This document shows positions 17,825-50,641 of a DNA stretch of 64,000 bases, piece after piece. The notes beneath the pieces were generated by a model. It was not told the origin of the DNA. It saw nothing but the letters and a program-made list of their open reading frames with translations, and ran no database searches. Positions within the stretch are counted from its first letter, which is position 1. Each line of letters opens with the position of its first letter. Source of the DNA: Lachnospiraceae bacterium MA2020 (GTDB taxonomy: Bacteria > Bacillota > Clostridia > Lachnospirales > Lachnospiraceae); NCBI GenBank assembly GCA_000746015.1, contig JQKK01000004.1, positions 186,001-250,000 of the forward strand, read 5' to 3'. A program made the translations under genes and the position numbers.

Positions 17825-18091
17825 ATGGATTTGAATTCAGTTATTAAATTAAAAAGGGATATTAGTGTTACAGACCTTTCAGGTGAAAAGGTCATGATAG
17901 ATTTTGAGACCGGTAAGTATTATATGCTTAAAGGTGTAGGTAACGATATCTGGGATATGATTCAGACCGAGATATCTGTAGGAGATATTGTTGAGAAGCT
18001 TCTTGAAGAATATGATGTTACAAGAGAAGTATGTACTGCATCTGTAATCGATTTTCTTTCAAAGCTTAAAGAAAGGGAGTTTATAGCCTAA
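17825..18091 (+). CDS. PqqD-like RiPP leader-binding protein (lasso B1 type)
   Basis: 88 residues matching the PqqD / RiPP recognition element fold: KRDISVTDLSGEKVMIDFETGKYYMLKGVGNDIWDMI, then a helical tail VEKLLEEYDVTREVCTASVIDFLSKL. Such proteins bind the leader of a RiPP precursor and present it to the protease and cyclase. The start at 17825 is chosen because GGAGG lies about 9 bases before it and the size fits. It sits between the exopolysaccharide primer enzyme and a GT14 gene, 23 kb from the rest of a lasso-peptide gene set (40.8-50.6 kb) that otherwise lacks a B1 protein, so it is the probable partner. Confidence 0.8.
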   Translation: MDLNSVIKLKRDISVTDLSGEKVMIDFETGKYYMLKGVGNDIWDMIQTEISVGDIVEKLLEEYDVTREVCTASVIDFLSKLKEREFIA

Positions 18092-18154
18092 AGAGAGGTT
18101 TGAAAAAGAGAGAAGTATATACGGGATTATACTGATAAATAATGGAAGGATCAC

Positions 18155-19078
18155 ATGAGAATAGCATTTTTGAATTTGTGTCATACTGATCCTAAGGTAG
18201 TTGCCAGATGTGCAAAGAGGCTCTGTGCAGATGCTGACTTCGACATGTATATACATGTTGATGCCAAGCAGGATATAGAGCCTTTTATTGCGGCAACAAA
18301 TGGGATTGAAAGGGTCTATTATACGACAAATAGGCATAAAGTTTACTGGGGCGGATATAATGCAATACATGCATGTTATGAGTTGATTAAGGAAGCTTTG
18401 AAAAGTGACAGGCATTATGACTATTTTGTAATGATGCAAAATCTTGATTATCCTATAAAGACAAATTCTGAAATTAAAGCCTTTTTTGAGAATAATAATG
18501 GTAAAGAATTTGTTCGTGGCTGTCCTATAGCAGGGACAAAGGATTGGGAGTTTTCGAGAAAATATAAACTCTTTTACATGAAAGATAATAATTATGGTAA
18601 GGCATCTAATAAAAATCCGATAAAGCTGATGATTACTGCTTTAACAGGTTTGTTAAGCATTTCAACTATTGGATTTGAAGGTACTATCAAAGAGTATGAT
18701 GGAGACTATAATATTTATTATGGGTGTGCTCAGTGGGCTGTGACACGTGAGTGTGCAGAGTTTTTAGTTGAGTTTGAGAAAACACATCCAAAGTTTAATA
18801 AAAGAATGAAGATTATGCAGTTTCCTGATGAAGAGTATTTTCATACAGCCATTCATAATTCAAAGTTTAAAACACGCTGTATAAGATATGATGAGCCGGA
18901 GGCTCGCTGGCTTGTGAACTGGAGGAATCTTACTTATTTTGAGTTTCCGAAAGAAGTAACGGTCATGACAGAAAAAGACTATGACAATCTGATCGAGCAG
19001 CCGGATTTGTTTTGTCGAAAGGTAAGGACAGGAGAGTCTGATAAGCTGCTGGAGATGTTGGATAAAGGTGCAAATTAA
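18155..19078 (+). CDS. GT14 core-2/I-branching-like glycosyltransferase
   Basis: 307 residues. It resembles the beta-1,6-N-acetylglucosaminyltransferase (core-2/I-branching, GT14) family: IAFLNLCHTDPKVVARC at the N-terminus, DMYIHVDAKQDIEPF, VYWGGYNAIHACYELIKEAL, MMQNLDYPIKTNSEI, YYGCAQWAVTRECAEFLV and FPDEEYFHTAIHNSKFK. The acceptor and sugar in bacteria vary, so only an exopolysaccharide side-branch or backbone role is inferred. GGAAGGA lies about 6 bases before the start. Confidence 0.85.
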   Translation: MRIAFLNLCHTDPKVVARCAKRLCADADFDMYIHVDAKQDIEPFIAATNGIERVYYTTNRHKVYWGGYNAIHACYELIKEALKSDRHYDYFVMMQNLDYPIKTNSEIKAFFENNNGKEFVRGCPIAGTKDWEFSRKYKLFYMKDNNYGKASNKNPIKLMITALTGLLSISTIGFEGTIKEYDGDYNIYYGCAQWAVTRECAEFLVEFEKTHPKFNKRMKIMQFPDEEYFHTAIHNSKFKTRCIRYDEPEARWLVNWRNLTYFEFPKEVTVMTEKDYDNLIEQPDLFCRKVRTGESDKLLEMLDKGAN

Positions 19079-19103
19079 ATATAGATATTGAGGAAAGAAT
19101 AGA

Positions 19104-20132
19104 ATGCCGTTGAATGTTATTAATGCTTATAAAAGATTAAGACATTGTTTGAGTTTATATAAAAAATATTATTCGCTACATAAAAATCATATTTTTATAA
19201 TTGGGGAGCCTAGACATGGAAATATTGGAGATAGTGCAATTGTAGATGCGCAAAAAAAGTTTATTTACAATGCATTTGGCGGCTTTTGTAAGATTTCTGA
19301 TGTATTTATGGATGATTATAAATATGATTATGATATGTGGGATAAACTTATTCAAGATAAGGATATAATATGTTTGCCGGGCGGTGGTAATCTTGGAGAC
19401 ATTTGGTATGAGGAAGAGATTTTTAGGGAGGAAATAATTAGTCGTTTTCCGAATAATCGTATCATAGTATTCCCACAATCCATGATGTTTCACTCTGAGG
19501 ATAAATTAAAGAAAGCGCGTAGTGTTTATAATAATCACAAGCATTTGACTATTGTAGCAAGAGATAAGATTACCTATGAGAATATGAAATCTGCCTTTAA
19601 TGAGTGCAATGTTTTGTTTACTCCGGATATTGTTCTTTCTAGAGACAATTTATTTGAGATTTATGCAGGAAATCATAGAAGTAATATTGGACTTTGCTTA
19701 CGGGATGATCTTGAGCGTAATCTCAGTGCTGATTCTACTAGTGAAATTTTGGATTATCTTAATATAAAAGGTTATGTTTACGATAAGTTTGATATGGTAG
19801 AGCCTGTTTCTATTACTATAGAAAATAGAGATGAATTAATTGAAAACAAGTTTAAGCAAATTTCAAGTTATCGTCTTATCATTACGGATAGACTTCATGC
19901 CATGGTATTTAGTGCTTTAACAGGTACTCCCTGTATTGTGTTTGCTAATAATCATCATAAAGTTAGCGGATGCTATGAATGGATTAGTTCTCTAAAGCAT
20001 ATACGTTTGGTGAAGTCAACAGATGAGGCATTGTCTCTTATTGATAGGCTTTATGATGGCCATGAATCTGTAAAGCCGGTTAATCTTAAGGATAAGTATA
20101 AGCCGCTTGTTGAAGCTTTAGTGAAATCATGA
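19104..20132 (+). CDS. Polysaccharide pyruvyl transferase family protein
   Basis: 342 residues with the family pattern: GEPRHGNIGDSAIVDAQKKF near the N-terminus, CLPGGGNLGDIWYEEEIFR, IVFPQSMMF, VARDKITYENMK, FTPDIVLS, ITDRLHAMVFSALTGTPCIV. Characterised members transfer a pyruvyl ketal from phosphoenolpyruvate to a sugar of an exopolysaccharide. A second family member lies at 25988. GAGGAAAG precedes the ATG. Confidence 0.85.
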   Translation: MPLNVINAYKRLRHCLSLYKKYYSLHKNHIFIIGEPRHGNIGDSAIVDAQKKFIYNAFGGFCKISDVFMDDYKYDYDMWDKLIQDKDIICLPGGGNLGDIWYEEEIFREEIISRFPNNRIIVFPQSMMFHSEDKLKKARSVYNNHKHLTIVARDKITYENMKSAFNECNVLFTPDIVLSRDNLFEIYAGNHRSNIGLCLRDDLERNLSADSTSEILDYLNIKGYVYDKFDMVEPVSITIENRDELIENKFKQISSYRLIITDRLHAMVFSALTGTPCIVFANNHHKVSGCYEWISSLKHIRLVKSTDEALSLIDRLYDGHESVKPVNLKDKYKPLVEALVKS

Positions 20133-20165
20133 AGATGAATTCTTATCTATTTTTTGAGAGGAAGT

Positions 20166-21401: not shown

Positions 21402-21413
21402 AATAGGTAGGTT

Positions 21414-22424
21414 ATGATTGATTCAATAAAAGAAAAAACACATAATTATAAGATTTCGGTCATTGTTCCAATTTACAAAGTCGAAGATTATCTTGAAAGA
21501 TGCGTAGACTCAATAATTAACCAATCTTATAAGAATCTTGAAATTATTTTGGTTGATGATGGTTCGCCAGATAATTGCTCAGAGATTTGTGACAGATATG
21601 CCAAGTTGGATTCTAGAATTAAGGTAATACATCAGAAAAATGGTGGTCTTTCGTGTGCAAGAAATTCAGGCTTAAGAATTGCGACAGGTGATTTTATTTC
21701 ACTTGTGGATTCGGATGATTACATTAATAGTAATATGTACGCTGATTTGATCGAGCAGATTATAGTTCACAAAGCAGATATTGCAATGTGTGATTGTGAG
21801 TACGTATATGAGAAAGATACCTTAGTCAAGGTCAACGAAAAGCCCGATTCATTAGAAGTCAGTGTTCTAGATGGTAAAAAGGCCCAGTATATGGCTTTTC
21901 GAGATGATATTAGCAGAATAGTTTTTAATGTTGCATGGAATAAGTTATATAGAAAAGAGCTATTTCAGAATATATCATATCCGGAAGGACGTATTCATGA
22001 AGATGAGGCAAGAACACACCAACTTATGTATAATGCTTCAAAAATTGTATATCTCAAATATCCTTATTATTATTACTTTCAAAGAAAAGATAGTATAGTA
22101 GGGATGAGAATTTCTAAGAAAAACTTACAGTTACTTGAAGCGTATGCGGATAAATTAAAGTTTTATAGGGAAAAGAAAGAAAACAAGCTTTGGAAAATGG
22201 AGGTTTCTCATTCTATGCACATGGTTTGTTATCAGCAGAAGTTGTTTGATGATGAGAAAATGAGTATAGATATCATACGAGAAGCTCAGGGAAAGATATT
22301 ATTGAAAGAAATAAAAAGATACGAGAGTATATCTGATCTTTCGATTGCATTAAAGTTTGAAATTATTTTATTTGTGCTTTTTCCAAAAATGTATTATAAG
22401 GTTTGGAAAATGAGAAAAGGTTGA
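21414..22424 (+). CDS. Family 2 glycosyltransferase
   Basis: 336 residues. The GT-A fold is shown by ISVIVPIYKVEDYLERCVDS, IILVDDGSPDNCSEICDRYA, NGGLSCARNSGLRIATGDF and the metal-binding DxD-like LVDSDDYI. The second half (NVAWNKLYRKELF, HEDEARTHQLMY, YYYYFQRKDSIVG) is common to capsule GT2 enzymes. It is the first of three adjacent GT2 genes that each add one sugar to the repeat unit; donor and linkage are unknown. Confidence 0.9.
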   Translation: MIDSIKEKTHNYKISVIVPIYKVEDYLERCVDSIINQSYKNLEIILVDDGSPDNCSEICDRYAKLDSRIKVIHQKNGGLSCARNSGLRIATGDFISLVDSDDYINSNMYADLIEQIIVHKADIAMCDCEYVYEKDTLVKVNEKPDSLEVSVLDGKKAQYMAFRDDISRIVFNVAWNKLYRKELFQNISYPEGRIHEDEARTHQLMYNASKIVYLKYPYYYYFQRKDSIVGMRISKKNLQLLEAYADKLKFYREKKENKLWKMEVSHSMHMVCYQQKLFDDEKMSIDIIREAQGKILLKEIKRYESISDLSIALKFEIILFVLFPKMYYKVWKMRKG

Positions 22425-22430
22425 TATTTA

Positions 22431-23420
22431 ATGAATGATTTGGTAAGCGTAATTGTTCCAATATACAATGCAGAAAAATACTTGTGTAAATGTATTGAAA
22501 GTTTGCTATCACAAACTTATACAAATCTTGAAATCATATTAATAAATGATGGTTCAACTGATGGTACTGACAAAATTTGTTGCAGTTATGCAAATAATGA
22601 TAGCCGAATAATATATATCAACAAAGAGAATTCCGGACAATCTGATACGCGTAATTATGGAATAGATTTATCAAAGGGCAAGTACCTTTTTTTTATGGAC
22701 AGCGATGATTATATTGATTCTGGTTACATAGAGTATTCTTTGAATCAGATGAATACTAATATTGCTGACTTGTCAATTTGTAATTATTATCATGTGTATT
22801 CTGGAAGTGAAGTGCGTGAGGAGCGTGAATTTTCTGCTGGAATATATGATCTATCATCATCTGAAGATAAATATAACTTTATTGTAAATGTTTTTTTACC
22901 ATATAAATGTGGATTTGAAGTATGGAATAGATTATATAATGCAGAAATAATTAGAAAAAATAATATTAGATTTCCAATCTTTAAGCCTGTTGTTGCAGAA
23001 GATGCTTGCTTTAACCTTTATTATATTATGTACTCTAATAAAATAGCAGTTTCAAATGAGCGATTTTATTATTATGTTCATAATGAAGGATCAACAATGG
23101 ATCAGAATAAGGGCATACAGTTGGATAGGTATAATGAAGTAAGCAAAAAAGTATACGACCATGTTGAAAAATCAATGGGCTTGGACTACATAAAAGATTA
23201 TTACGTTTATATTCATGTTTTACTTATTTATCATGAAATTATGAATTGTGGATTAGGTGAATCGAAAGAGTATATATGTAGAATAAATAACAGAGAATAC
23301 TTTAGAAAGATAATGAGATTTGGCGTCAAGAGTTTTTTTGTTTCGTTGAAAAGCATGGGAATGATGAGAGGAATTAAGTATACTCTTTTAGGAATTATTT
23401 ATAAGATGTGGATATCGTAA
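22431..23420 (+). CDS. Family 2 glycosyltransferase
   Basis: 329 residues with the GT2 pattern VSVIVPIYNAEKYLCKCIES, ILINDGSTDGTDKICCSYA, FMDSDDYID (metal site) and the EDACFNLYY stretch of the second half. It differs from its neighbours in the central region (NSGQSDTRNYGIDLSKGKYL), so it is a distinct transferase, not a recent copy. It begins 6 bases after the preceding GT2 and overlaps the region before the next. Confidence 0.9.
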   Translation: MNDLVSVIVPIYNAEKYLCKCIESLLSQTYTNLEIILINDGSTDGTDKICCSYANNDSRIIYINKENSGQSDTRNYGIDLSKGKYLFFMDSDDYIDSGYIEYSLNQMNTNIADLSICNYYHVYSGSEVREEREFSAGIYDLSSSEDKYNFIVNVFLPYKCGFEVWNRLYNAEIIRKNNIRFPIFKPVVAEDACFNLYYIMYSNKIAVSNERFYYYVHNEGSTMDQNKGIQLDRYNEVSKKVYDHVEKSMGLDYIKDYYVYIHVLLIYHEIMNCGLGESKEYICRINNREYFRKIMRFGVKSFFVSLKSMGMMRGIKYTLLGIIYKMWIS

Positions 23421-23434
23421 GTGAGGATATGTTG

Positions 23435-27127: not shown

Positions 27128-27130
27128 TAT

Positions 27131-30478: not shown

Positions 30479-30706
30479 TGAATAAGCTTAAAAGATAAGG
30501 AGAGCATGAGTATGGAGGAAAAAATTGAACTATATTCCGTTGACAACAGCATTTTGAATGATGCTATTGATAGAGTAGTAGTTAAACTGCATGGATTAAA
30601 CAAGAAATCAGGATCAAAGATATTTTTGCTGTCCGGTGCAAGTGTAAATGCCGGAACAGCAGCTGTCGCGATAAACATTGCAATATCATTTGCTGCAGCA
30701 GGATGG
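30479..30706 (+). repeat. Direct repeat, left copy (5' end of cpsD plus leader)
   Basis: 228 bases match 31907-32132 with only one small indel (an extra AG next to the ribosome site) and scattered substitutions. Both copies begin TGAATAAGCTTAAAAG and end GCAGCAGGATGG. The two copies bracket an acyltransferase gene. Confidence 0.85.
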
Positions 30707-30709
30707 TAA
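30512..30709 (+). pseudogene. Truncated cpsD copy (N-terminal fragment)
   Basis: About 65 residues that closely match the N-terminus of the CpsD-like protein at 31938 (EKIELYSVDNSILNDAIDRV against EIIELYSVDNSILNDAIDRV) and then stop at AAAGW-stop, where the full gene goes on AAAGWKTAFVDCDFRK. Only the first quarter of the kinase domain remains and the P-loop region reads SVNAGTAA, without a lysine. An ATG at 30506 is also in frame. It is a broken leftover of a duplication or exchange, although a short peptide could still be made because its ribosome site is intact. Confidence 0.8.
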
Positions 30710-30747
30710 AATTCGCAACCAACTGTTTATCGTTCATGGAGGAAAGG

Positions 30748-31749: not shown

Positions 31750-31906
31750 ATATATTAAGTGAAGCAGCCTTATGAAAGGAATGTTTGGGTTTGCGGGCAT
31801 TGGAGATAAGGCAGATTGCCGATGGATAGGACTTCATGTAAGCCTCGATTAGAGAAAGCTGACAAAGTTGATGTAACTTTTGATTTGTGCGAATTGCGCG
31901 AATTTT

Positions 31907-32132
31907 TGAATAAGCTTAAAAGATAAGGAGCATGAGTATGGAGGAAATAATTGAACTATATTCTGTTGATAACAGTATTTTGAATGATGCTATTGATAGA
32001 GTAGTAGTTAAACTGCATGGATTAAAAAAAAGATCAGGATCCAAGATTTTTTTATTGTCTGGTGCCAGTGTAAATGTTGGAATAACAACTGTTGCTATGA
32101 ATATGGCTATTTCGCTTGCTGCAGCAGGATGG
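31907..32132 (+). repeat. Direct repeat, right copy (leader and 5' end of cpsD)
   Basis: The partner of 30479-30706. Between the acyltransferase stop and this copy (31750-31906) there is no recognised gene; a 26-codon frame at 31772-31852 has no known relative and may be a remnant. Confidence 0.85.
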
Positions 32133-32666
32133 AAAACAGCTTTTGTAGATTGTGATTTTAGAAAAGATCAGCAGTATAAAAGAATAGAAGTAACAGGAAA
32201 ATCTTCTTTGGCAAGTTTTCTTTCCGGAGAAATATCTGAGATAGATAAAGCTATTTGTTCAACTAATAAGGATAATCTTGATTACATCGCTGCAGGTAAG
32301 GAAAACAATAATCCGGTTCGCCTTCTTGGAAATGCCAAGATGGGGCAGCTTATTGCCAGACTTAAGGATAAATATGATTATGTGATCATAGATACACCAT
32401 CTGTAAGCATTGCTAATGATGCGGAGCTGATGATGCCTTATGTTGATAACTACATGTTAGTAGTAGGTATGCAGTCCACAACCAAGAAGCAGCTTGTAAA
32501 ATCCAGATTACAGCTTTCTGATTATGAGGATAAATTCATAGGCGTGATTGCAAATAAGATGGGGCTTATGCAATATAGATTTGATGTTGGTGATTATAAT
32601 TATTTTTCAAGTCAAAAACTTCTTGATAAGCAGCATAAGGCAATATATAGGAAGAAAGGCAGATAA
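31938..32666 (+). CDS. CpsD/CapB-type BY-kinase homologue with degenerate P-loop
   Basis: 242 residues with the layout of a bacterial tyrosine autokinase that partners CpsC in chain-length control. Walker A-prime FVDCDFRKDQ (69-78) and Walker B YVIIDTPS (148-155) are present, and the C-terminus has a tyrosine group (Tyr213, 220, 222, 237). However the P-loop reads GASVNVGITT (42-51) where the family has an EGKST/EGKTT-type end, so the catalytic lysine is Ile49. ATP hydrolysis is doubtful; it may act as a regulatory pseudokinase. The ATG at 31938 gives a 7-base spacing to AAGGAG; an ATG at 31932 is too close. Confidence 0.8.
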   Translation: MEEIIELYSVDNSILNDAIDRVVVKLHGLKKRSGSKIFLLSGASVNVGITTVAMNMAISLAAAGWKTAFVDCDFRKDQQYKRIEVTGKSSLASFLSGEISEIDKAICSTNKDNLDYIAAGKENNNPVRLLGNAKMGQLIARLKDKYDYVIIDTPSVSIANDAELMMPYVDNYMLVVGMQSTTKKQLVKSRLQLSDYEDKFIGVIANKMGLMQYRFDVGDYNYFSSQKLLDKQHKAIYRKKGR

Positions 32667-35595: not shown

Positions 35596-37101
35596 ATGAA
35601 TAAACATATAAAAAAAATATCATTTATAGTTATAGGTTTAGCTTTAAGTTTGATTGTTTTCATTAGTATTGCATTTGGACAAAAATCAAATGATAAAAAT
35701 AATGATTCCAAATCAGCTGAGGATATTAGTTTTGCTAATGTTGATATTGATCTTGGTAGTGGCTATAACATAGGTAATACTTTAGATTCATGTGACTGGA
35801 CTTATTTTGGGTCTAAGAATACATTAGGATTTCAGGCTGCTTTAGTATATAGTACGTATCCATGGTCAACATGGGATGCCTCGGATTATATTTCTTTTGA
35901 TAATGATGGGAATGCTATGATTACATGGGATTTGAATTCGTTGAAATCTAATTTAGACTTAAATGCAAAAAGTTTCTATATTCAGATTGTTAACCATGAT
36001 TCTTCCTATGAAGGAACCAATGTTACTTGCGATGTTAAGGACATTACTATAAAGGGGGATGATAGTAAATTAAAGAATATTGTTAACGCAAAAAATACAA
36101 TGAGAAAACTTACAATAGAAAATTCTGTAAGTGAATTTATTTGTGTTGATATGACTTCATCAGGATTAAAGACATCTGATCTGAAAGATAAAGTTTTGAG
36201 CGTAAAACTCAAGCTTTCTGATTATTATGTTAATATATCTGAAAATAATGCTAAACTCGAAGAATCATGGGGGAATCCTCAAATATCTGAAAATATGATA
36301 AAGGCACTAAAGAAAGAAGGATTTGATACCATACGTGTCCCGGTTACTTATTTTAATCATATTTCATCGGACGGCACAATAGAAGCTGAGTTTTTAGATA
36401 GAGTAGAGCAGGTAGTAGATTGGGTTATTGAAAATGATATGTATTGTATTATTGATGTTCATCATGATACAGGTAATCAGGGGTGGATTAAGTCTTCTGC
36501 TGTGAATTATGAAAAAAACAAAGATACTGTTTATAGTATTTTTGTTCAAATAGCAAATAAGTTTAAAAATAAGAATGATAAGTTAATACTGGAAGGATTG
36601 AATGAAGCTGTAAATGAAAAAACTAAATGGTACAATATACCATTAGCTGATATGAAAGTGATGAATCAGTGGAATCAGCTTTTTGTTGATGCGGTAAGAA
36701 GCACAGGTGGTAATAATACTAATAGATATTTGTTAGTAAATACATATGCTGCACTTCCAAGTAAAGAATGTATGTCCGCATTTAAGATGCCTTCAGATAA
36801 TACTGATAATAGGATACTTGTGGGAATACATTGTTATTTTAATGCCGATAACATGGATAATAATTTCAGTATAGTAAAAAAATATTCAAAAAAATATCCT
36901 CTTGTTATTGGTGAGTGGAGATTTGGAAACGATGCACCGTATGATAAATCACTTGTAGAAAAGTTTTTATCATATGTGAAGGAAATTGGTATTCCTCAAA
37001 TTATCTGGGATGATGGCGGTAATTCGGGAAAGGAACTTTATAATCGTAAAACATTAGAGAGTAATTATCCTGATGTATCTAATGCTATTGTGGGAAAGTG
37101 A
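35596..37101 (+). CDS. GH5-family endoglucanase with internal insertion
   Basis: 501 residues. An N-terminal membrane/signal helix (about 8-28) is followed by a GH5 cellulase domain in two parts. GYNIGNTLDSCDW (56-68) is the usual first strand; it should run straight into ESWGNPQISENMIKALKKEG (223-242), but about 155 residues of beta-rich sequence are inserted (about 66-222). Catalytic residues fit Glu337 (GLNEA) as acid/base and Glu440 (VIGEWRFG) as nucleophile; HH at 289-290 is typical. AAAGGAGAAG is a strong ribosome site. In this locus it probably trims or edits the polymer, comparable in logic to glycosidases of other secretion systems. Confidence 0.85.
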   Translation: MNKHIKKISFIVIGLALSLIVFISIAFGQKSNDKNNDSKSAEDISFANVDIDLGSGYNIGNTLDSCDWTYFGSKNTLGFQAALVYSTYPWSTWDASDYISFDNDGNAMITWDLNSLKSNLDLNAKSFYIQIVNHDSSYEGTNVTCDVKDITIKGDDSKLKNIVNAKNTMRKLTIENSVSEFICVDMTSSGLKTSDLKDKVLSVKLKLSDYYVNISENNAKLEESWGNPQISENMIKALKKEGFDTIRVPVTYFNHISSDGTIEAEFLDRVEQVVDWVIENDMYCIIDVHHDTGNQGWIKSSAVNYEKNKDTVYSIFVQIANKFKNKNDKLILEGLNEAVNEKTKWYNIPLADMKVMNQWNQLFVDAVRSTGGNNTNRYLLVNTYAALPSKECMSAFKMPSDNTDNRILVGIHCYFNADNMDNNFSIVKKYSKKYPLVIGEWRFGNDAPYDKSLVEKFLSYVKEIGIPQIIWDDGGNSGKELYNRKTLESNYPDVSNAIVGK

Positions 37102-40768: not shown

Positions 40769-41197
40769 ATGAATATTAGATCTTTTTTGTTTGAGAATAA
40801 TGAAAAGTTTATAACACTTAAGGCCTATATTTATTCTTTTTATTATAGGTTTATTGTAAAGCATACTTCAACAAAGAAGCTGCAATACAGGATGGGTAGA
40901 AGAGATGAAGAATCTACCTTTGATGAGCCTGATGATAAGATAGCAATTTCAAAAATCTATGCTTTTCATGTGAATAGGATTACAGAAAGGCTTCCATGGG
41001 AACAAAAGTGTTTTGTGAGAGCATTGACACTTAGAAAGATTCTTATGGAGAAAAAGATATCCTGTACGATATACATGGGGGTACAGAAAGAAGATGGGAA
41101 AATGAAAGCTCATGCATGGCTTCGCAGCGGCAAGGTATACCTTAGCGGAGGAAACGGTGCAGGGTTTGTTACAGTAGCAAAATTTGCTACACTATGA
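40769..41197 (+). CDS. Lasso-peptide B2-type leader peptidase (transglutaminase-like)
   Basis: 142 residues, the size of stand-alone lasso B2 proteins. It carries the cysteine-protease pattern with Cys81 in CFVRALTLRKILMEK and His115 in AHAWLRSGKVYLSGG. B2 proteins cut the leader off the precursor after the B1 protein has bound it. No B1 gene is adjacent; the PqqD-like gene at 17825 is the only candidate in the window. The ribosome site is weak (AATTAGTAGA). The next gene follows closely, with its start 19 bases after this stop. Confidence 0.85.
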   Translation: MNIRSFLFENNEKFITLKAYIYSFYYRFIVKHTSTKKLQYRMGRRDEESTFDEPDDKIAISKIYAFHVNRITERLPWEQKCFVRALTLRKILMEKKISCTIYMGVQKEDGKMKAHAWLRSGKVYLSGGNGAGFVTVAKFATL

Positions 41198-41216
41198 GGC
41201 TAGAGGGAATAAAATA

Positions 41217-42485
41217 ATGACTACTAAATGTATGGATGATCTGTTCTTCTTATGTAGAAGTCATATGTATCCAGGACTTGAAGAACAAAGAAAATGCAGT
41301 GATGAGATTGAACTTGACGCGCTTGAGGAAGCAATAGCTAAAAATAATCTGACAGAATTTTTATATGAGCCGTTGAAAGAAATATATGAGAGAAATAATT
41401 GTCACGATGAAAAAACCACAAGTGGTTTTAATGCATTTGTAAGACATAGAGTTATTACTGAAATGGGAAAGTATCAGGCAATAAGAATAGTCAATGCGGA
41501 GGCTAAAAAAAGAGGTATTGATCTGATATTTTTTAAAGGCCTGATACTTGCTGATTTATATCCTCAGTTTGCAGAGAGAGTTAGTTCTGACAGTGATATA
41601 TTGGTAAGCGATGAGCAGAAGGATGCAGCTGAGAAACTCCTTTGTGATTGTGGCTACGAAAAGGTGACAGCTTCGTGTAAGACTCATGTACAGGTTTATG
41701 ATAATAAAGCGTATGCACATGTTATCGAGCTTCACACGAGACTTTGGGAGGACTATGAGGGTCCTAAGATTGATATATTAAAGAGTTTAAATTTGTCCTC
41801 CGAAGAGTCTAATATAATTGTTAAGGCCTGTGGCATTGAGGTAAAAACACTAGGTGTAGAGGAGCATCTTTTATATCAGTTTTTTCACATTATAAAACAC
41901 TTTAGCCTGGATGGAATCGGAATCAGATATTTGATAGATATTACATTGTTTGTAAACAGATATTATCAGGATATAGATTTTGATTTGTTTTGGAAGCATG
42001 TTGATATACTAGGGTATACAAAATTTGTTGAGGCTTTCTTTAAGATATGTATTGATGAATTGAATATGACCAATAAGGTTTTCTATGGACATGAGTATAC
42101 GTTAAGAGATAGTACAGAGAATCTTAAAATTGATCTTTTAAACGTAGGAAACACTGCAGATAAAGAAGCGGGATGGCAGATTATGGGAGCTATGGAAGCA
42201 TATTTTACCGGGGATGCTGCTGTTCCTGATTCAAAGATAAAAAGGCAGATAAGCATGATATTCCCACCTGTTGATGCATTGCCCAAAGTGTATGATTATG
42301 CGATTAAATATCCGGTTCTTTTGCCTGTAGCATGGATCCATAGAGGCTGTAAGTTCTTGATAAAACGACAGTTTCATAAAGAAGAATTTTATGGTGTCAG
42401 AGAAAAGATTGATGTTGCAGAGCGTAGGATGAATCTTATCGAGGAGATGGGATTAGCTGTTGATATAGAAAAAGATGAACACTAG
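41217..42485 (+). CDS. Nucleotidyltransferase-family protein of lasso clusters
   Basis: 422 residues. The active-site pattern is FFKGLILADLYPQ followed by RVSSDSDILV, with the paired acidic residues of minimal nucleotidyltransferases (NTP_transf_5 family); ELHTRLW and GIRYLIDITLFV follow. Relatives sit in kinase-containing lasso-peptide clusters, where their substrate is unproven. The ATG at 41217 has AGAGGGA upstream. Its stop lies inside the stem of a bidirectional terminator, so this two-gene unit (B2 plus nucleotidyltransferase) ends here. Confidence 0.8.
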   Translation: MTTKCMDDLFFLCRSHMYPGLEEQRKCSDEIELDALEEAIAKNNLTEFLYEPLKEIYERNNCHDEKTTSGFNAFVRHRVITEMGKYQAIRIVNAEAKKRGIDLIFFKGLILADLYPQFAERVSSDSDILVSDEQKDAAEKLLCDCGYEKVTASCKTHVQVYDNKAYAHVIELHTRLWEDYEGPKIDILKSLNLSSEESNIIVKACGIEVKTLGVEEHLLYQFFHIIKHFSLDGIGIRYLIDITLFVNRYYQDIDFDLFWKHVDILGYTKFVEAFFKICIDELNMTNKVFYGHEYTLRDSTENLKIDLLNVGNTADKEAGWQIMGAMEAYFTGDAAVPDSKIKRQISMIFPPVDALPKVYDYAIKYPVLLPVAWIHRGCKFLIKRQFHKEEFYGVREKIDVAERRMNLIEEMGLAVDIEKDEH

Positions 42486-42506
42486 GTGTGGTGTTCATCT
42501 TTTTTT
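42470..42506. terminator. Bidirectional terminator at the end of the nucleotidyltransferase gene
   Basis: AAAAGATGAACAC pairs with GTGTTCATCTTTT, followed by TTT; the upstream A-run gives the T-tract for the opposite strand, where a GT2 gene ends at 42516. The stop codon is in the stem-loop. Confidence 0.88.
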
Positions 42507-42515
42507 GTTCATTGT

Positions 42516-43502
42516 TCATTTTATTTTATAGTATATTGGGAGAAGGAATCCAGCAAGTTTATATGTGAAGCTGTTCATTGATTTCATAAACATAGAATGT
42601 TTTCCAGTATATTCTCTGAGGTATTTTCCTTTCTTCCATTCTGGGAATGTACTTATCAGCTTTTCCCAGTTTTTCGGAAGAGCAACGGAGCGATCATGCG
42701 CATCAGGAATTCTTGTCATGCGACTAAAGGAGCTGCAAAGAAGAATTCTCGTATAAAGGAATTCAAGCGCATCACGATAATCATTTAGAAATCCGTTTGT
42801 CTCATAAAAAGAATAGACATCATCAAGAATATCTAATATCTGTAAGGTCTTTAGTGTCTGATAATTATTCGTGGAAATTGAACGCTGTACGTAATGATAA
42901 AATGGCTGTTCAACATACGATAATTTGTTGATAAATGGTATGATTTTTACACAAAAGCTAACATCTTCATAGATAAGTCCACTTGGAAACATAACTCCAG
43001 TTGATTTTAACCATGAATAGTTATATATTTTGTTCCAAACTACATTTCGTCCATTCATTATGAGATCATTTTTGTCGGTAATTTGGTCAACGATTTCTGT
43101 ATCTTCAAAGTCATCAAAAGTGTGGTGTAGATTACATTCAACAACATCAGCTACAGTTTCGAGAGCTTTGTTATACATTGTTTCAAACATATCAGCGTCA
43201 ACGAAATCGTCAGAATCTACAAAACCGACAAATTCTCCTCTTACATGAGGAAAGGCAAAATTTCTTGCATCTGACATTCCACCATTGGGCTTATCCAGAA
43301 CAATAACTCGACTGTCCTTAGCTGCAAACTGTTTAGCAATAGAAAGTGAACCATCTGTAGAACCATCATTAACCGCAAAAATCTCAATTTCTTTGAGAGT
43401 CTGCCCTATTAGAGATTCTAAACATTTAGAAAGATACTTTTCCGTATTATAGATTGGAACGATGACACTTACTTTTACATTACTAGATTCATTTAAACTC
43501 AA
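42516..43502 (-). CDS. Family 2 glycosyltransferase (opposite strand)
   Basis: 328 residues with VSVIVPIYNTEKYLSKCLES, IFAVNDGSTDGSLSIAKQFA, NGGMSDARNFAFPHVRGEF, GFVDSDDFVD and EDVSFCVKIIPFI. It is the only minus-strand sugar gene in the locus, convergent with the nucleotidyltransferase gene and divergent from the exporter gene. It may belong to a separately controlled unit; whether it acts on polymer or peptide is unknown. Confidence 0.9.
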   Translation of the reverse strand: MSLNESSNVKVSVIVPIYNTEKYLSKCLESLIGQTLKEIEIFAVNDGSTDGSLSIAKQFAAKDSRVIVLDKPNGGMSDARNFAFPHVRGEFVGFVDSDDFVDADMFETMYNKALETVADVVECNLHHTFDDFEDTEIVDQITDKNDLIMNGRNVVWNKIYNYSWLKSTGVMFPSGLIYEDVSFCVKIIPFINKLSYVEQPFYHYVQRSISTNNYQTLKTLQILDILDDVYSFYETNGFLNDYRDALEFLYTRILLCSSFSRMTRIPDAHDRSVALPKNWEKLISTFPEWKKGKYLREYTGKHSMFMKSMNSFTYKLAGFLLPIYYKIK

Positions 43503-43692
43503 AATTTATCTCCCTATCATTGGTAATACAAATTACAGTTGTATTTTTAACAGTAATCATTTATTATAAATAATGTTTGTGATTTAATACAATAAATGAT
43601 TTTACCATGAATTAAAGAAAAATAAAAGTATGATTTAGGGTAATATATGACTTGTAAAATTTCAAGTAAGAAGTTGGGATGTGAGGAAGAAG

Positions 43693-45378
43693 ATGAGATT
43701 TAAAAGATACTTGAATAAATACAGGGAAGATAAGGCTAGAGGAAGAAATTATTTTAACTGGTTGATGCATTATACGAAACCGTATATGTGGAAAATCATA
43801 CTTCTGATGATCATTAGTATAGCAATGACTTATGTTTCAATTGGTTATGCTGTAGCATCACAGAAATTGATCGATATGGCGGGGAAAGGTCATATCACAA
43901 AAACAGCAATTGCTCTCTTTATGGGACTGATGGTTTCGATGCTTATCATCAATACAGCAATTGAGCTTGCTAATGTGATGGTAAACGAAAAATATACTTT
44001 CGGTATTCGTAAGCAGGTATATGACAAGCTTTTAAGGTCGGAATGGCTTGGCACGCAGCAATTTCATACAGGTGATATGATGACCAGAATGACAAGCGAT
44101 GCCGGTAATGTAGCGAATGGTATGGTTAATGTCATTCCGGAAATAATAGTGCTTCTGATACAGCTTGTAATGGTGTTTATAACCTTATATATCAATTCAC
44201 CTTTTTTGGCAATATTTGCTCTTTTTCTTACACCTTTTGGAATGGTAATTGCCTTTTTGATAGGCCGAAAGCTTAAAAAGTTGCAGATCAAGGTACAGGA
44301 GACAGAAACAGCATATCGCTCTTTTATACAGGAGAGTCTTGCTAATATTCTTATAGTAAAGGCTTTTTCAAATGAAGACAGGTTTTCTGAGCAACTTGCA
44401 GATCTTCGAGAGAATAGATTTTTTTGGGTGTGGAAGAAAAGTAAATTATCATCACTTTCAAATCTGGTATTAAATGGAACATTTCAGGTTGGATATGTTT
44501 TTGCGTTTGTATATGCGGCAGGTCAGATTGCAAATGGCGAGATAACATTTGGTACGATGACTCTCTTTCTTACATTGTTTAGTAGGATTCAGGCTCCGAT
44601 AGCAAGCCTTGCAAATCAGCTTCCAGGAGTGGTTTCTGTGTTTTCTGCTGCAAGCAGGATTATGGATATACAGGATATTTCTGATGAAAAACGCGAGCTG
44701 CCTGTCAATATGGAAGGCTCAGTAGGTGTACGTGTATCTGATGTTTCTTTTGCTTATGGAAAGAAGAATGTTCTTGAAAATGTGTCATTTAATATTGAGC
44801 CTGGTGACTTCGCAGCTATAATCGGACAATCAGGTATAGGTAAAACAACACTTATAAGAGGGCTTTTGAATTTTATCAGTTCTCAGAGCGGAAATATAGA
44901 ATATTATGACAAACATGGTCATAAGGCACATGCAAGTGCTTCCGTAAGAGAGTTTATATCTTATGTGCCACAGGGTAATACATTGTTTTCAGGAACTATA
45001 AGAGATAATGTACTTATGGGTAAGCCTGATGCAACGGAAGCGGAAATATGGGAGGCACTTGATATGGCGGTTTGCCGAGATTTTCTGGAAAAGCTTCCTG
45101 ATGGTATAGACACTGTTATCGGAGAAAAGGGTGTCGGTATATCAGAAGGTCAGGCACAAAGAATTGCTATTGCCAGAGCTCTTATAAGAAAATCACCATT
45201 TCTTATCCTTGATGAGGCTACATCAGCACTCGATGAAAAGACAGAGGCAGAGTTCTTGAAAAAATTTGATGAAATCAGTCCGCGTCCTACCTGTCTTTTG
45301 ATTACGCATCGATCAAGTATACTTAAATACTGTAATAAAGAGCTTATCATAGACAACGGATGTGTAACAGTGCATTGA
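43693..45378 (+). CDS. ABC exporter (fused membrane and ATPase domains), probable lasso exporter
   Basis: About 561 residues. Six membrane helices (about 30-310) precede an ATP-binding domain with Walker A GQSGIGKTT (378-386), signature GISEGQAQR in place of LSGGQ, Walker B FLILDEATSAL and the switch His in ITHRSS. It is a homodimeric half-transporter of the peptide/lipid exporter type, without a peptidase domain. Its place among lasso genes suggests export of the mature peptide and self-protection; polysaccharide-related export is an alternative. The ATG at 43693 has GAGGA 5 bases upstream. Confidence 0.85.
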   Translation: MRFKRYLNKYREDKARGRNYFNWLMHYTKPYMWKIILLMIISIAMTYVSIGYAVASQKLIDMAGKGHITKTAIALFMGLMVSMLIINTAIELANVMVNEKYTFGIRKQVYDKLLRSEWLGTQQFHTGDMMTRMTSDAGNVANGMVNVIPEIIVLLIQLVMVFITLYINSPFLAIFALFLTPFGMVIAFLIGRKLKKLQIKVQETETAYRSFIQESLANILIVKAFSNEDRFSEQLADLRENRFFWVWKKSKLSSLSNLVLNGTFQVGYVFAFVYAAGQIANGEITFGTMTLFLTLFSRIQAPIASLANQLPGVVSVFSAASRIMDIQDISDEKRELPVNMEGSVGVRVSDVSFAYGKKNVLENVSFNIEPGDFAAIIGQSGIGKTTLIRGLLNFISSQSGNIEYYDKHGHKAHASASVREFISYVPQGNTLFSGTIRDNVLMGKPDATEAEIWEALDMAVCRDFLEKLPDGIDTVIGEKGVGISEGQAQRIAIARALIRKSPFLILDEATSALDEKTEAEFLKKFDEISPRPTCLLITHRSSILKYCNKELIIDNGCVTVH

Positions 45379-45391
45379 TATAAATGTGTTA

Positions 45392-45420
45392 TTGTGATAC
45401 GATGTTGTACGTTGTACAAA
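45392..45420 (+). promoter_or_regulatory. Possible promoter before the 45448 glycosyltransferase
   Basis: TTGTGA (45392-45397), 17 bases and TACAAA (45415-45420). It is a moderate match in AT-rich sequence. Confidence 0.3.
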
Positions 45421-45447
45421 TAATTAAAGTTAGAGGGCTATAAAATA

Positions 45448-46554
45448 GTGGGTTTAAAAAAGAAGATTAGTATAATTATTCCGGCTTATAATATTGAAAA
45501 TTATATTGGTAAGTGTATTGATAGTATTCTGGCGCAGGATGTTGATAAGTCTCAGATTGAGGTGATAATCGTTGATGATGGCTCAACTGACAAAACCGGA
45601 GCAATCATTGACGATTATGCGTCAAAGTATGATATCATTAAGCCATTGCACAAGCCTAACGGTGGAGTATCTGCGGCGAGAAATTATGGTATAGCATCGG
45701 CTAGCGGCGAATACATATTCTTCTTTGATGGTGATGACTATCAGGAGAAAGAAACGTGCAGAGAGCTTACTGAGATTGCAGATAAAGGTGGTTATGATGC
45801 TGTAATCTACGGTTATCACAGAGTAGAAAACGGTAATGTGTATGAGACAACCCTTCCAAGATTTGATAAGACTGTTTATACGGGAGATTCTATAATAAAA
45901 GAAGTTGTTCCTGCGTTCATTGGTCTTTCGAACGAAGATGTTAACAATTGGATAGCAGGAAAGCCAGATTCACTTTATGTTGAAAATCCTGCTCTTTGGC
46001 GTATACTTTGTAAGAGAAGTGTGATTGTTGATAATAATCTTAAGTTTGATACAACTTTGAAGGTCGGTGAGGATACCTGTTTCATTTCTGAGTATCTTAG
46101 CTGCTGTAAGAATGTGTTTGTTCAGCAAAAATGTTATTATTATCTGGTTACTCGTTCTACTTCTGCAATATTCAGGTATGAAAGAGAGCCGCTTTCAAAG
46201 CTTGATGGTAAGATCCGTCTAAATGATGCAAGAGAAAGGCTTGTAGACAGGATCAAAAAGAGAACCGGTTTCGACGTTACTGATACCTTTAATGGAACGA
46301 TTGTCATGTCTGTTGTAGAGATGGCGTTCCTTCTTTCTAAATCTAACAAAGATGTGTCTTTGCGTAAAAGATATGATGGCTATAAGAATTTTGCGGAAGA
46401 TAAAAGAGTCAAGAATATGATATCTGATTTTGAAATAGGCGGTGGCTCGATTGTAAAGAGGATACCATTTGTTTTCTTGAAAAAAGGTTGGTTTGGTCTT
46501 TTGTTTATGGCTACGACAATGCTGCATGTCGTGCACTATGAGTTTAAGCGCTGA
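45448..46554 (+). CDS. Family 2 glycosyltransferase
   Basis: 368 residues: ISIIIPAYNIENYIGKCIDS, VIIVDDGSTDKTGAIIDDYA, NGGVSAARNYGIASASGEY, FFFDGDDYQEKET as metal site, GEDTCFISEYLSCC. It is longer than the other GT2 enzymes because of an extra segment near 140-175 (VVPAFIGLSNEDVNNWIAGK) that belongs to a capsule-type subgroup. The start is GTG with AGAGGG upstream. It lies between the exporter and a second, DPM-like transferase. Confidence 0.88.
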   Translation: MGLKKKISIIIPAYNIENYIGKCIDSILAQDVDKSQIEVIIVDDGSTDKTGAIIDDYASKYDIIKPLHKPNGGVSAARNYGIASASGEYIFFFDGDDYQEKETCRELTEIADKGGYDAVIYGYHRVENGNVYETTLPRFDKTVYTGDSIIKEVVPAFIGLSNEDVNNWIAGKPDSLYVENPALWRILCKRSVIVDNNLKFDTTLKVGEDTCFISEYLSCCKNVFVQQKCYYYLVTRSTSAIFRYEREPLSKLDGKIRLNDARERLVDRIKKRTGFDVTDTFNGTIVMSVVEMAFLLSKSNKDVSLRKRYDGYKNFAEDKRVKNMISDFEIGGGSIVKRIPFVFLKKGWFGLLFMATTMLHVVHYEFKR

Positions 46555-46569
46555 TCAAGGAGTTTTTTG

Positions 46570-47511: not shown

Positions 47512-47518
47512 GAAATTA

Positions 47519-47552
47519 AATGCTGCAACAATTTATTATTGTATGCAGCATT
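47519..47552 (+). terminator. Strong hairpin between the DPM-like gene and the peptide kinase gene
   Basis: AATGCTGCA-ACAAT pairs with ATTGT-A-TGCAGCATT across a 5-base loop. The T-tract after it is weak (ATTTATG), so it may be a terminator, an RNA-stability element or an attenuator. Confidence 0.5.
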
Positions 47553-47598
47553 ATTTATGTATAAGGTGTTGAATTTTGAATTGAAAGGTAATGATGAA

Positions 47599-48492: not shown

Positions 48493-48507
48493 GTGAGGAA
48501 TTAGAAG

Positions 48508-50421
48508 ATGTCAGCAATTTGGGGTTGTATAGATTTTTCAGGATCTATATTGGATAGCGGCCTTCCGGACATTATGACGGAATGTACTAAGTTATATAAA
48601 ATAGATCGTACAGAACATTTAATTGAAAATAATGTATATATGGCGTGCGGCTTACAATATATAACTAAAGAGTCAAGATATGAAAAATTACCTTGTATAA
48701 AAGATGGTTTATACTTCTCAGCAGATTGTATCATTGATAATAGACAGGAACTTATTGATAGTTTAGGGATAGATACAGATGCAGCAGACGGAGAGGTGCT
48801 TTTTTCGGCTTGGCAGAAGTGGGGAGAAGACTTTGGCAACTATGTTATTGGTCTGTTTTCTTTTGCTGTATATGACAGGAAGAAAAGTCAGTTTTATTTA
48901 TATACTGACCATACTTCTTCAAGATGTATTCATTACTTTGTTAAGGGTAGTAAGGTTTATTTTGCAACACTTACAAAGTGTATTACAGATGCAGCAGGTG
49001 GGATAGACATTAGTGAAAAATGGCTTACTGCATGCATGTCGACGAATTTTCCATCAATGCTATTATATGAAGGACTTTCACCATTTGAAAATGTATTTAT
49101 ACTTCCATATGGCTGTGGAGTAAAGATTGAATATATTGATAATAGCATAGTTGTAGAAAAAAAGCGCTATTGGGATCCATTAAATACTGTTACGCAGATC
49201 AAAAAATTTGATGATAATAATTGCAGGAAAATGTTTCGGGAAGTACACAATAAATGTGTACAGGATGCGATTCGCACTGATGGCAATATTGGAATCTTGC
49301 TTAGCAGCGGATTAGATTCATCGGCTATTGGATGTACGGCTGCAAGGATGCTTAATCTTAAAAAGAAGGACCTATACAGTTATACATCTATCCCTTTGAA
49401 AGAGTTTGATGGTAATAGTGATAACAAGCAGAAGTTTTGGATAGATGATGAGTCTGAAGGTGTTAAATGCATTTGTAATCATTATAAAAATATCAAACCC
49501 AAGTTTTTGGAATGCAGAGGAAAAAGTGTGCTTTCGTATGTGGAAGAGTTTGTGAAGTATCTTGAATTTCCAGGAAAAGCATTGGTAAATCATGTTTGGA
49601 TGAAAGATGCATATGAAATGGCGAGAGAAGATGGCTGTAGAATCGTAATGTATGGCAGTTATGGAAATATGTCAATCTCATATGGATCATTATTTGAAAA
49701 TACATGGCTGATGATCAAATGTGGTGATATCATTGGGGCTGTTAAACAGATATTTAGACTGGCTGAAAAAGAACACTTGAGCAAAAAGAATCTTCTTAAA
49801 ATGTTTGTTAAAAAGCTGTTTAACAATGTGGATTATACAGATGATTCACATATTGATGACGAGCTTTTTAAATCTAAGCTTGTTGAAAAGTATAATATTA
49901 GAAAAGAGTGGGAAAATAGATTAAAAAGAGAAGGTATTGAAAAAATGACATTATCTCAAAGAAGAAATGCTCTTGTTTCAGGTTTATTATTTCAGCTTGT
50001 CGGATTATATGAGACTAAGGATGGACTTTATAATGGTATATTGATAAGAGATCCATCTAAGGATAAAAGGATGATCGAATTGTGTCTTAGACTCCCTTTT
50101 AAATGTTTTGCCTGGAATGGAGTGGAAAGGAGACTTGTAAGAGATTATCTGGATGATGTTGTTCCTGATGAGATAAGGCTTATAAATAGAAATAGAGGTA
50201 GACAAAGTGGAGATGCTGTAATTAGGTATGATATGTATGGTCTTCCTAATGGAGAAAAAACATGGGATGTTCTAATAGGCAGGATGAAATCCTATTTCAA
50301 TATTGATAAGTCAATAGAGTTATTAAAATCTAAAACAGATGCTGCAAACTTGATAAATAAGGCTAAAATTATGTCTTGTAATTATTTTTTGAAGGAATTT
50401 GGAAAAGACGACCTTGTTTAG
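48508..50421 (+). CDS. Asparagine-synthase-like lasso-peptide cyclase
   Basis: 637 residues. It has an N-terminal glutamine-amidotransferase-like domain that begins MSAIWG instead of MC, so the glutaminase nucleophile Cys2 is absent, and a C-terminal asparagine-synthase domain with PP-loop LLSSGLDSSAIG (about 264-275). Lasso cyclases use ATP to activate an Asp or Glu side chain and join it to the new N-terminus. Size and the lost Cys fit this role better than true asparagine synthase. It ends just before a bidirectional terminator shared with the precursor gene. Confidence 0.88.
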   Translation: MSAIWGCIDFSGSILDSGLPDIMTECTKLYKIDRTEHLIENNVYMACGLQYITKESRYEKLPCIKDGLYFSADCIIDNRQELIDSLGIDTDAADGEVLFSAWQKWGEDFGNYVIGLFSFAVYDRKKSQFYLYTDHTSSRCIHYFVKGSKVYFATLTKCITDAAGGIDISEKWLTACMSTNFPSMLLYEGLSPFENVFILPYGCGVKIEYIDNSIVVEKKRYWDPLNTVTQIKKFDDNNCRKMFREVHNKCVQDAIRTDGNIGILLSSGLDSSAIGCTAARMLNLKKKDLYSYTSIPLKEFDGNSDNKQKFWIDDESEGVKCICNHYKNIKPKFLECRGKSVLSYVEEFVKYLEFPGKALVNHVWMKDAYEMAREDGCRIVMYGSYGNMSISYGSLFENTWLMIKCGDIIGAVKQIFRLAEKEHLSKKNLLKMFVKKLFNNVDYTDDSHIDDELFKSKLVEKYNIRKEWENRLKREGIEKMTLSQRRNALVSGLLFQLVGLYETKDGLYNGILIRDPSKDKRMIELCLRLPFKCFAWNGVERRLVRDYLDDVVPDEIRLINRNRGRQSGDAVIRYDMYGLPNGEKTWDVLIGRMKSYFNIDKSIELLKSKTDAANLINKAKIMSCNYFLKEFGKDDLV

Positions 50422-50434
50422 ATATATAATAGCG

Positions 50435-50472
50435 TAAAAAAAGAGAGCTGGTAGATTTGCCAGCTCTCTTTC
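50435..50472. terminator. Bidirectional terminator between cyclase and precursor genes
   Basis: AAAGAGAGCTGG pairs with CCAGCTCTCTTT. The 7-T run is on the minus strand (after the precursor gene); on the + strand the tail CTTTCT is weaker. Confidence 0.88.
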
Positions 50473-50491
50473 TAAAATAAGTGAATAATAA

Positions 50492-50641
50492 TTAACCACT
50501 AACTATAACTGTACCTGCCCACCATGATTTTCCTTCATCTGGTGTAATCCACTCACCATCCCAATTCATGGTCTTCTGTCCGCCGCCTGCAGTCTCGTTG
50601 ATGTTAAGCTCTTCGATAGCTGGTGTATTCCATGACTTCAT
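50492..50641 (-). CDS. Lasso-type RiPP precursor peptide
   Basis: 49 residues. GGAGGAAAA lies 4 bases before the ATG at 50641, which fixes the start; an upstream in-frame ATG lies next to that site. The N-terminal part MKSWNTPAIEELNINETA looks like a lasso leader: Trp4, Pro7, Ile9/Leu12 as the B1-binding face and Thr17 near the cut. The rest, about 31 residues, starts with Gly19-Gly20-Gly21 and has Asp28, which would be ring position 8 or 9 if Gly21 or Gly20 is residue 1. The tail is rich in Trp (27, 31, 40, 41) and ends VIVSG, with Ser48 as a possible kinase target. It is convergent with the cyclase gene. Confidence 0.8.
   Translation of the reverse strand: MKSWNTPAIEELNINETAGGGQKTMNWDGEWITPDEGKSWWAGTVIVSG

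Follow-up and report, generated by a model that had tools for sequence, protein, structure and literature searches.

A paeninodin-type lasso peptide gene set dispersed through an exopolysaccharide locus of a Lachnospiraceae genome

The locus and the question it raises

Why should the genes of a single lasso peptide pathway lie scattered among genes for exopolysaccharide (EPS) synthesis? This is the question raised by a stretch of DNA of Lachnospiraceae bacterium MA2020 (contig JQKK01000004.1, positions 186,001 to 250,000), which is referred to here, at its full length of 64,000 nucleotides, as the window. It carries one kinase-type (paeninodin-like) lasso set, dispersed over 33 kb within an EPS locus. 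An earlier note on this DNA, made from the sequence alone, had listed seven lasso parts and described them as built into the EPS locus. All seven are found in the window, they make up a single set, and they lie in the EPS gene run, so that this description holds. On balance we consider it probable that they form one paeninodin-type lasso pathway, long-standing inside the EPS locus of these Lachnospiraceae and expressed together with EPS. The seven parts are the following.

17825-18091, plus strand: B1, a PqqD-like leader-recognition protein, or RiPP recognition element (RRE; RiPP, ribosomally synthesized and post-translationally modified peptide); NF033536 lasso_PqqD_Bac, 86.7 bits, above the cut-off of 80
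40769-41197, plus strand: B2 leader peptidase; NF033537, 66.7 bits, above the cut-off of 33
41184-42485, plus strand: nucleotidyltransferase-like protein of the PsmN type (NTP_transf_5); PF14907, 116.7 bits, cut-off 31.2
43681-45378, plus strand: MsbA-like ABC exporter; PF00664 and PF00005
47539-48492, plus strand: HprK-like kinase; PF07475, 37.4 bits, above the cut-off of 33.3
48508-50421, plus strand: Asn-synthase-like lasso cyclase; NF033535, 179.9 bits against a cut-off of 525; PF00733; SSGLDSS motif
50641-50492, minus strand: lasso precursor of 49 aa with a WxxP leader; NF033524 (PadeA family), 23.5 bits, cut-off 27

The closest solved structure to B1 is PbaB1 (9x90, 56.4 bits). The nucleotidyltransferase gene, whose start overlaps the end of B2, has a product with no NCBIfam match, the kinase carries H, K, D and D residues (assigned by eye), and the lasso cyclase model is the top NCBIfam model for the cyclase, though with a score far under its cut-off. 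The precursor gene lies 71 bp from the cyclase gene, alone on the minus strand and antisense to the lasso genes. It is preceded by a sequence resembling a ribosome-binding site, its leader begins MKSWNTP and thus contains the WxxP motif, and its core is likely GGQKTMNWDGEWITPDEGKSWWAGTVIVSG, with a predicted core start. By eye, a hairpin followed by a T run can be seen 3' of the precursor, in the interval that separates the precursor from the end of the cyclase gene; this hairpin is absent from the list of the terminator scan. A PDB search with the precursor gave nothing useful.

The set is the only one of its kind found in the genome. PF05402 has two matches there, B1 and one protein on contig C18 (63262-63426, E 1.3e-6), which has an OPT-like transporter gene on one side and a HydF-like gene on the other (labels given by eye), with no RiPP set in the surrounding 3.2 kb inspected. 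A single lasso-type B1, a single B2 and a single PadeA-like precursor match were found in the genome and, besides the cyclase, there is one further Asn-synthase-like protein, on contig C22. The earlier note had asked for a PqqD-like gene beside another lasso set elsewhere in the genome as evidence to the contrary; the search found none. It could also be argued that sugars are the substrates of the Asn-synthase-like protein and its neighbours, uronic acids being amidated for instance, and that no lasso is made at all, as its lasso-cyclase score is below the cut-off and the genes sit among sugar genes. This is hardly credible, since the protein is accompanied by B1, B2 and a WxxP precursor, the last in its immediate vicinity.

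The exopolysaccharide setting and the proposed pathway

The surroundings of the lasso genes are those of an EPS locus, with these main features.

15219-15241, plus strand: terminator-like hairpin ahead of the EPS gene run (5 sites in the region scanned against 6.2 expected, weak by itself)
16383-17786, plus strand: initiating sugar transferase of the EPS locus; PF02397, 238.7 bits
18155-40704, plus strand: 21 open reading frames (ORFs) of at least 95 aa between B1 and B2, EPS genes; Pfam scans of part of them
42465-42508, plus strand: terminator-like hairpin of 20 pairs at the end of the run (8 sites in the region scanned against 7.0 expected)
42516-43502, minus strand: family 2 glycosyltransferase (GT2) within the lasso block; domain match
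45448-46554, plus strand: GT2 glycosyltransferase, the other flank of a missing LPP-like cassette (see below); PF00535
46567-47511, plus strand: GT2 glycosyltransferase with a hydrophobic C-terminal part (by eye); PF00535
52451-53907, minus strand: sensor kinase and response regulator, present too in the loci of the relatives G001, G023, G029 and G030

B1 starts 38 bp behind the initiating sugar transferase and is separated from B2 by 22.7 kb, an interval encoding glycosyltransferases, pyruvyl transferases, acyltransferases, a ParA-like protein, a cellulase-like protein and membrane proteins, while several ORFs gave no Pfam match in the part that was scanned. The distance of about 23 kb and the intervening polysaccharide genes reported in the earlier note are thus borne out, as are the GT2 genes inside the lasso block, of which there are three (42516, 45448 and 46567). 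Nine of the 42 GT2 matches in the genome (E up to 1e-10) fall in 25.6 kb of the locus, or 0.69% of the sequence, and the EPS context therefore goes beyond chance.

The stretch between 15407 and 42485 holds 27 ORFs that share a strand and are separated by a median of 12.5 bp, and B1 and the B2–nucleotidyltransferase pair stand near opposite ends of this co-directional EPS run. A second run comprises the ABC exporter, two GT2 genes, the kinase and the cyclase. Same-strand terminator-like sites outside genes occur only at both ends of the first run, the remaining listed ones being inside genes. Because this is one co-directional run with no intergenic terminator-like site in the scan, shared regulation of the lasso and EPS genes is plausible. 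It is only the arrangement of the genes that suggests co-transcription of B1 and B2 with the EPS genes, and that ties the lasso pathway to the polymer.

The proposed pathway reads the step of each enzyme from homology. B1 would bind the WxxP leader of the precursor and present it; the HprK-like kinase would phosphorylate a Ser near the C-terminus, and the NTP_transf_5 protein would add a sugar to the phosphate. B2 is predicted to remove the leader, the cyclase to join the N-terminal Gly to an Asp, most likely Asp9, and the MsbA-like ABC protein to export the product. As B1, B2 and the nucleotidyltransferase are co-directional with the EPS genes, leader recognition and cleavage may be switched on with EPS synthesis.

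Two further observations concern the interior of the run. A protein with a cellulase (GH5) domain is encoded at 35596-37101 (PF00150, 151.2 bits). A short ORF at about 30507-30710, before an acyltransferase gene (30703) and with a ParA-like gene (31932) behind, has a P-loop-like end by eye, and may be a broken or displaced part of a capsule-type kinase gene.

Recurrence of the layout in relatives

Genomes, designated here by genome (G), contig (C) and locus (L) numbers, were picked by B2, and the scan patterns came from B2 proteins of the genus, so that relatives are over-represented. B2 scores above the cut-off in 7 of 48 genomes of the genus and in 13 of 396 genomes of a family sample, two of those 13 belonging to the genus; 26 loci came from a pattern scan of named genomes, and 19 of these have Lachnospiraceae or Butyrivibrio in their titles. 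Scan loci L031, L032, L035, L036 and L047 were dropped as the same records as G022, G039, G001, G030 and G029, respectively, and L054 and L055, with titles outside Bacillota, were excluded. Altogether 42 regions were annotated with profiles built from the window's proteins. The positions of B1 and of the initiating transferase were mapped in 37 genomes, reduced to 36 as G459 has the same coordinates as G144. In six genomes (G022, G039, G216, G443, G452 and G456) B1 and B2 are on separate contigs and give no gap value, and in 30 regions, window included, both are on one contig.

The separation of B1 from B2 is common among these 30 regions. The gap exceeds 2 kb in 22 of them, 5 kb in 18 and, a point of interest to genome miners, 10 kb in 10, it is at most 500 bp in 8, the median is 7.4 kb, and the largest value, 39.5 kb, belongs to the congener G023. 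The statement in the earlier note that kinase-type lasso genes are normally kept side by side is therefore not upheld here. In G216, the lengths of the contigs that carry B1 (C27:109198-109500) and B2 (C14:47385-47801) imply a distance of about 61 kb or more, provided that the assembly is correct.

The place of B1 recurs as well. In at least 12 of the 36 genomes no more than 200 bp separate B1 from a PF02397 gene, on whose 3' side B1 always lies; the two genes share a strand in 10 of the 12 and converge in 2. About 0.06 of 36 would be expected by chance, assuming independent genomes, which they are not. In a B1 tree (FastTree, no support values) the 12 form about five groups by eye, namely the window, G022, G023 and G039; G029; G446, G449 and G450; G443, G444 and G452; and G084. 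The tree nests the long-branched G335 and G455 in the window's group, and its fine order is not trustworthy. No description of B1 beside an initiating transferase was found in the small number of open-licence texts consulted.

The plan of the window is matched best in G023, where the transferase, B1, EPS genes, B2, nucleotidyltransferase, kinase, cyclase and an antisense precursor are all present, with 48 to 80% protein identity to the window for most shared genes. Gene order differs between genomes, and none of the mapped relatives copies the order of the window exactly. This last point is what speaks for the option, raised in the earlier note, that lasso cluster and EPS locus merged only recently in this lineage. 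The same plan at such identities in G023, and a B1–B2 separation that recurs in other genera, make a recent merger very improbable; separation and adjacency of B1 to the transferase are spread over several branches of the B1 tree.

A second type of RiPP cassette in these loci

Some of the EPS loci that hold lasso genes also hold cassettes resembling those of linear polyphosphorylated peptides (LPP). In G023 this second cassette (L019:9745-15821) comprises a second nucleotidyltransferase, a GT2 glycosyltransferase, the ABC protein, a second HprK-like protein, a YxxP-containing short ORF, another RRE and a protein resembling signal peptidases (TIGR02228, 27.2 bits, under the cut-off). Comparable cassettes are present in G441 (C11:99-107 kb) and G442 (C2:19.7-27.6 kb), and in part in G084 (C4:18.2-21.6 kb), the YxxP short ORF being seen in G023, G441 and G442. 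TIGR02228, a model of archaeal-type signal peptidases, was tried as a mark of such cassettes and rejected: it is above its cut-off in 5 of the 36 genomes, and only for the match in G455 is there an RRE match no more than 3 kb away. As it gave the G023 peptidase only 27 bits, the genus was searched with the G023 protein instead, which is found in 4 of 48 genomes and has no match in the window's own genome; TIGR02228 has one match there, on C7, below the cut-off.

The window's ABC exporter and the glycosyltransferase at 45448-46554 are 75.6% and 76.2% identical, respectively, to the genes flanking the G023 cassette, and in the window they are 69 bp apart. The LPP-like cassette has thus been lost from this locus or was never present, while its flanks, the exporter included, remain. 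As the exporter flanks a second RiPP cassette in G023, it is not specific evidence of lasso export.

These cassettes raise the possibility that the 17825 protein serves another peptide, for example an LPP-like one, and not the precursor at 50641-50492. The protein is 22.7 kb from B2, relatives hold LPP-like cassettes in these loci, and a Gly called conserved in paeninodin RREs (PMC13381572; papers cited by PMC number are represented here by parts of their text) is a Lys in the window. The position in question is that of LppB N33, and in the 36 lasso B1 proteins it holds K in 30, R in 2, G in 2, V in 1 and N in 1 (residue positions mapped via the 9x90 alignment). All five second RREs, which score below 90 bits with the B1 profile, have N and D at the LPP RRE positions N33 and D70, but N occurs there in 1 and D in 2 of the 36 lasso B1 proteins, and the window RRE has K and S; with WxxP in place of YxxP, neither its leader nor its RRE is of the LPP type. 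Since, in addition, the 17825 protein passes the lasso RRE cut-off and is the sole such protein found in the genome, from which the LPP-like peptidase is absent, service to another peptide is highly unlikely.

Differing gene histories and competing explanations

Long residence of the lasso pathway in the EPS locus is further suggested by linkage. A close orthologue of this locus's Core-2 branching transferase (at least 69% identity) is found in 6 of 48 genomes of the genus, that is, in 6 of the 7 that carry B2 and in none of the 41 others, the remaining B2 genome, G029, having only a 38% match on another contig. Fisher's test for branching transferase against B2 gives 5.7e-7 over the 48 genomes and 6.8e-4 over the 22 more complete ones; the 69% threshold was chosen after the list was seen, the next matches being at 43% and lower. 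Lasso and EPS genes thus co-occur within the genus, and kinship may account for part of this and of the 6 in 7. In Mantel tests over 18 genomes, B1 distances correlate with those of B2 (r 0.50, p 0.0005) and of the initiating transferase (r 0.49, p 0.001), the correlation between B2 and the transferase being weaker (r 0.28, p 0.014).

By mean pairwise identity, B1 (0.53), B2 (0.47) and the transferase (0.49) are better conserved than the cyclase (0.29), the kinase (0.28) and the nucleotidyltransferase (0.30, 17 genomes); distances and identities use the top-scoring copy per genome, so that kinase and nucleotidyltransferase values may include copies from LPP-like cassettes. Two cyclase matches with one lasso-type B1 in the fetched stretch are seen in 6 of the 30 genomes with a cyclase match, although one cyclase copy is cut by the stretch end in two of these six, and G327 has four precursor-like ORFs close to one cyclase. 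We read this as a conserved B1/B2 pair that may serve faster-changing modules of kinase, cyclase and precursor; exchange of the cyclase alone would give the same pattern. Two single cases are recorded beside these counts. A stretch of G144 (C152) holds two B2 genes (22308-22766 and 31845-32324), two cyclases and one lasso-type B1, and in G430 a single ORF (C26:102-1277) is matched by the RRE profile and also by that for HprK-like proteins, with a weak RRE match also in a 391-aa frame, and may be an RRE–kinase fusion.

Several observations weigh against a long-standing pathway expressed together with EPS. The longest gaps within the co-directional run, 404 and 182 bp, leave room for promoters, and the terminator and promoter scans overall are at chance level. 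Both cyclase and precursor score under their curated cut-offs. The Ser of the window precursor is penultimate (...VSG), whereas the phosphate site expected is a C-terminal Ser, and two congener precursors have no Ser close to the end. Marks of the paeninodin type that fail in the window are gene clustering, the terminal Ser and one RRE residue. Eight of the 30 regions have B1 next to B2, and in 10 of the 30 the two genes occupy opposite strands. Cyclase distances show no correlation with those of B1, B2 or the transferase in the 18 genomes and, in a study of one Paenibacillus, no product was detected by mass spectrometry in the native strain (PMC13381572).

Under a competing explanation, the lasso genes are passive cargo: EPS loci would be recombination hot spots on which RiPP modules land repeatedly, to be split by turnover of EPS genes, and a working lasso pathway would have nothing to do with the polymer. 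The separate history of the cyclase from that of B1 and B2, the occupation of these loci by two RiPP types, lasso and LPP-like, the varying gene order, and the many gains and losses of paeninodins inferred in Bacilli (PMC13381572) all fit such a view. It does not account well for a B1 that is repeatedly found right behind the initiating transferase, in at least 12 of the 36 genomes, nor for B1 distances that correlate with those of this transferase, and we regard passive cargo as rather unlikely, though deserving attention.

The long-standing pathway expressed with EPS is accordingly retained as the preferred reading. The recurring layout, with B1 behind the initiating transferase, turns it into a concrete hypothesis, that the peptide is made with, and perhaps on, the sugar coat. 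In the boldest form of it the peptide would be part of the exopolysaccharide: B1 would act as the common recognition point for varying modules of kinase, cyclase and precursor, the lasso tail would receive a phospho-sugar through the kinase and the NTP_transf_5 protein, and glycosyltransferases of the locus would extend it or join it to the polymer. This proposal is speculative and we hold it to be doubtful; if true, the result would be a lasso-tipped or lasso-studded coat.

Precursor leader and ring size

For the precursors, 29 sequences from 20 genomes were selected by eye from pattern matches, leaving out chance-looking ORFs; the pattern search gave no precursor in nine cyclase-bearing genomes (G155, G392, G430, G441, G444, G445, G446, G450 and G458). 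The leader Trp lies exactly 13 residues before a Thr in 27 of the 29, window included, with Tyr in the other two, both from one genome. Relative to this Thr, position T+2 is variable and T+3 is Gly in 23, a count somewhat biased because the search pattern required Thr followed by Gly or Ala within four residues. An acidic residue is present at T+11 in 19 precursors and, failing that, at T+10 in 8.

The usual rule places Thr at the penultimate position of the leader, with exceptions, and the acceptor at positions 7-9 (PMC10368454). In 12 of the 29 precursors, that of the window among them, T+11 is acidic and none of T+8 to T+10 is, which leaves either Thr at -2 with a ring of ten, or a ring of nine with Thr at -3. 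The only acidic residue in range in the window is T+11, so that either Thr(-2) or an acceptor at 7-9 has to be given up; the layout thus puts two textbook rules to the test, as they cannot hold together in any of the 12. A ring of ten, with the core after TA and Thr at -2, was taken at first, and is disfavoured by the pattern of Gly at T+3 and acidic residues at T+11 or T+10. We favour a core that starts at Gly1, with a predicted Gly1–Asp9 lactam in the window and Thr at -3, the ring being of 9 or 8 across precursors. This would give an Ala(-2) leader, and predicted leaders of that kind are mentioned in PMC10368454 (Kretsch et al. 2023). For the window, the monoisotopic mass of the lactam is calculated as 3273.52 Da with a ring of 9 (30-residue core) and as 3330.54 Da with a ring of 10 (31-residue core), to which a phosphate would add 79.97 and a hexose 162.05. 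The W-15 numbering of PbaA (PMC13381572) would speak for Thr at -2, provided that the spacing there is 13 as well. The Hungate1000 survey also employs a Gx7D pattern (PMC13289728).

Comparison with known systems

Lasso clusters embedded in capsular polysaccharide loci are known from Bacilli, an example being pba of Paenibacillus alginolyticus, and both paeninodins and LPPs often co-localise with such loci (PMC13381572). In one Paenibacillus a lasso B1 gene and an EPS gene were induced together, and the role of paeninodin-type lasso peptides is left open by the same source (PMC13381572). The window resembles pba in its discrete B1 and B2, candidate macrolactam cyclase and precursor, HprK-like kinase, NTP transferase, WxxP leader and surrounding polysaccharide genes, and differs from it in belonging to Lachnospiraceae, in having B1 next to the initiating transferase, on its 3' side, at a distance of 22.7 kb from B2, and in the Lys that its RRE has in place of Gly (PMC13381572).

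Among the lasso clusters of rumen Butyrivibrio and Lachnospira, those of B. fibrisolvens resemble the window in the accessory genes reported for them, namely nucleotidyltransferase, HPr kinase, GT2 and EpsH genes along with a two-component system (PMC7533575); neither separation of B1 from B2 nor adjacency to an initiating transferase is described in the parts of PMC7533575 compared. In the pseudomycoidin (psm) system, PsmK phosphorylates the C-terminal Ser and PsmN adds a hexose (PMC9266682). The window shares with psm a kinase and a nucleotidyltransferase acting, by prediction, on the lasso tail (PMC9266682, PMC7533575), although its Ser is penultimate, three GT2 genes lie inside its lasso block and its setting is an EPS locus. 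The likeness to LPP systems (PMC13381572) is in the LPP-like cassette of the G023 locus, of which the window keeps the ABC and glycosyltransferase flanks; unlike them, the window's genome has no SipW-like leader peptidase and its RRE lacks the N and D.

Embedding in capsule loci has been published in outline for Bacilli (PMC13381572). What is added here is the layout in Lachnospiraceae, with B1 anchored behind the initiating transferase, a less conserved kinase and cyclase around a better conserved B1/B2 pair, and an LPP-like cassette that was lost or never present, with retention of its flanking genes, among them the exporter.

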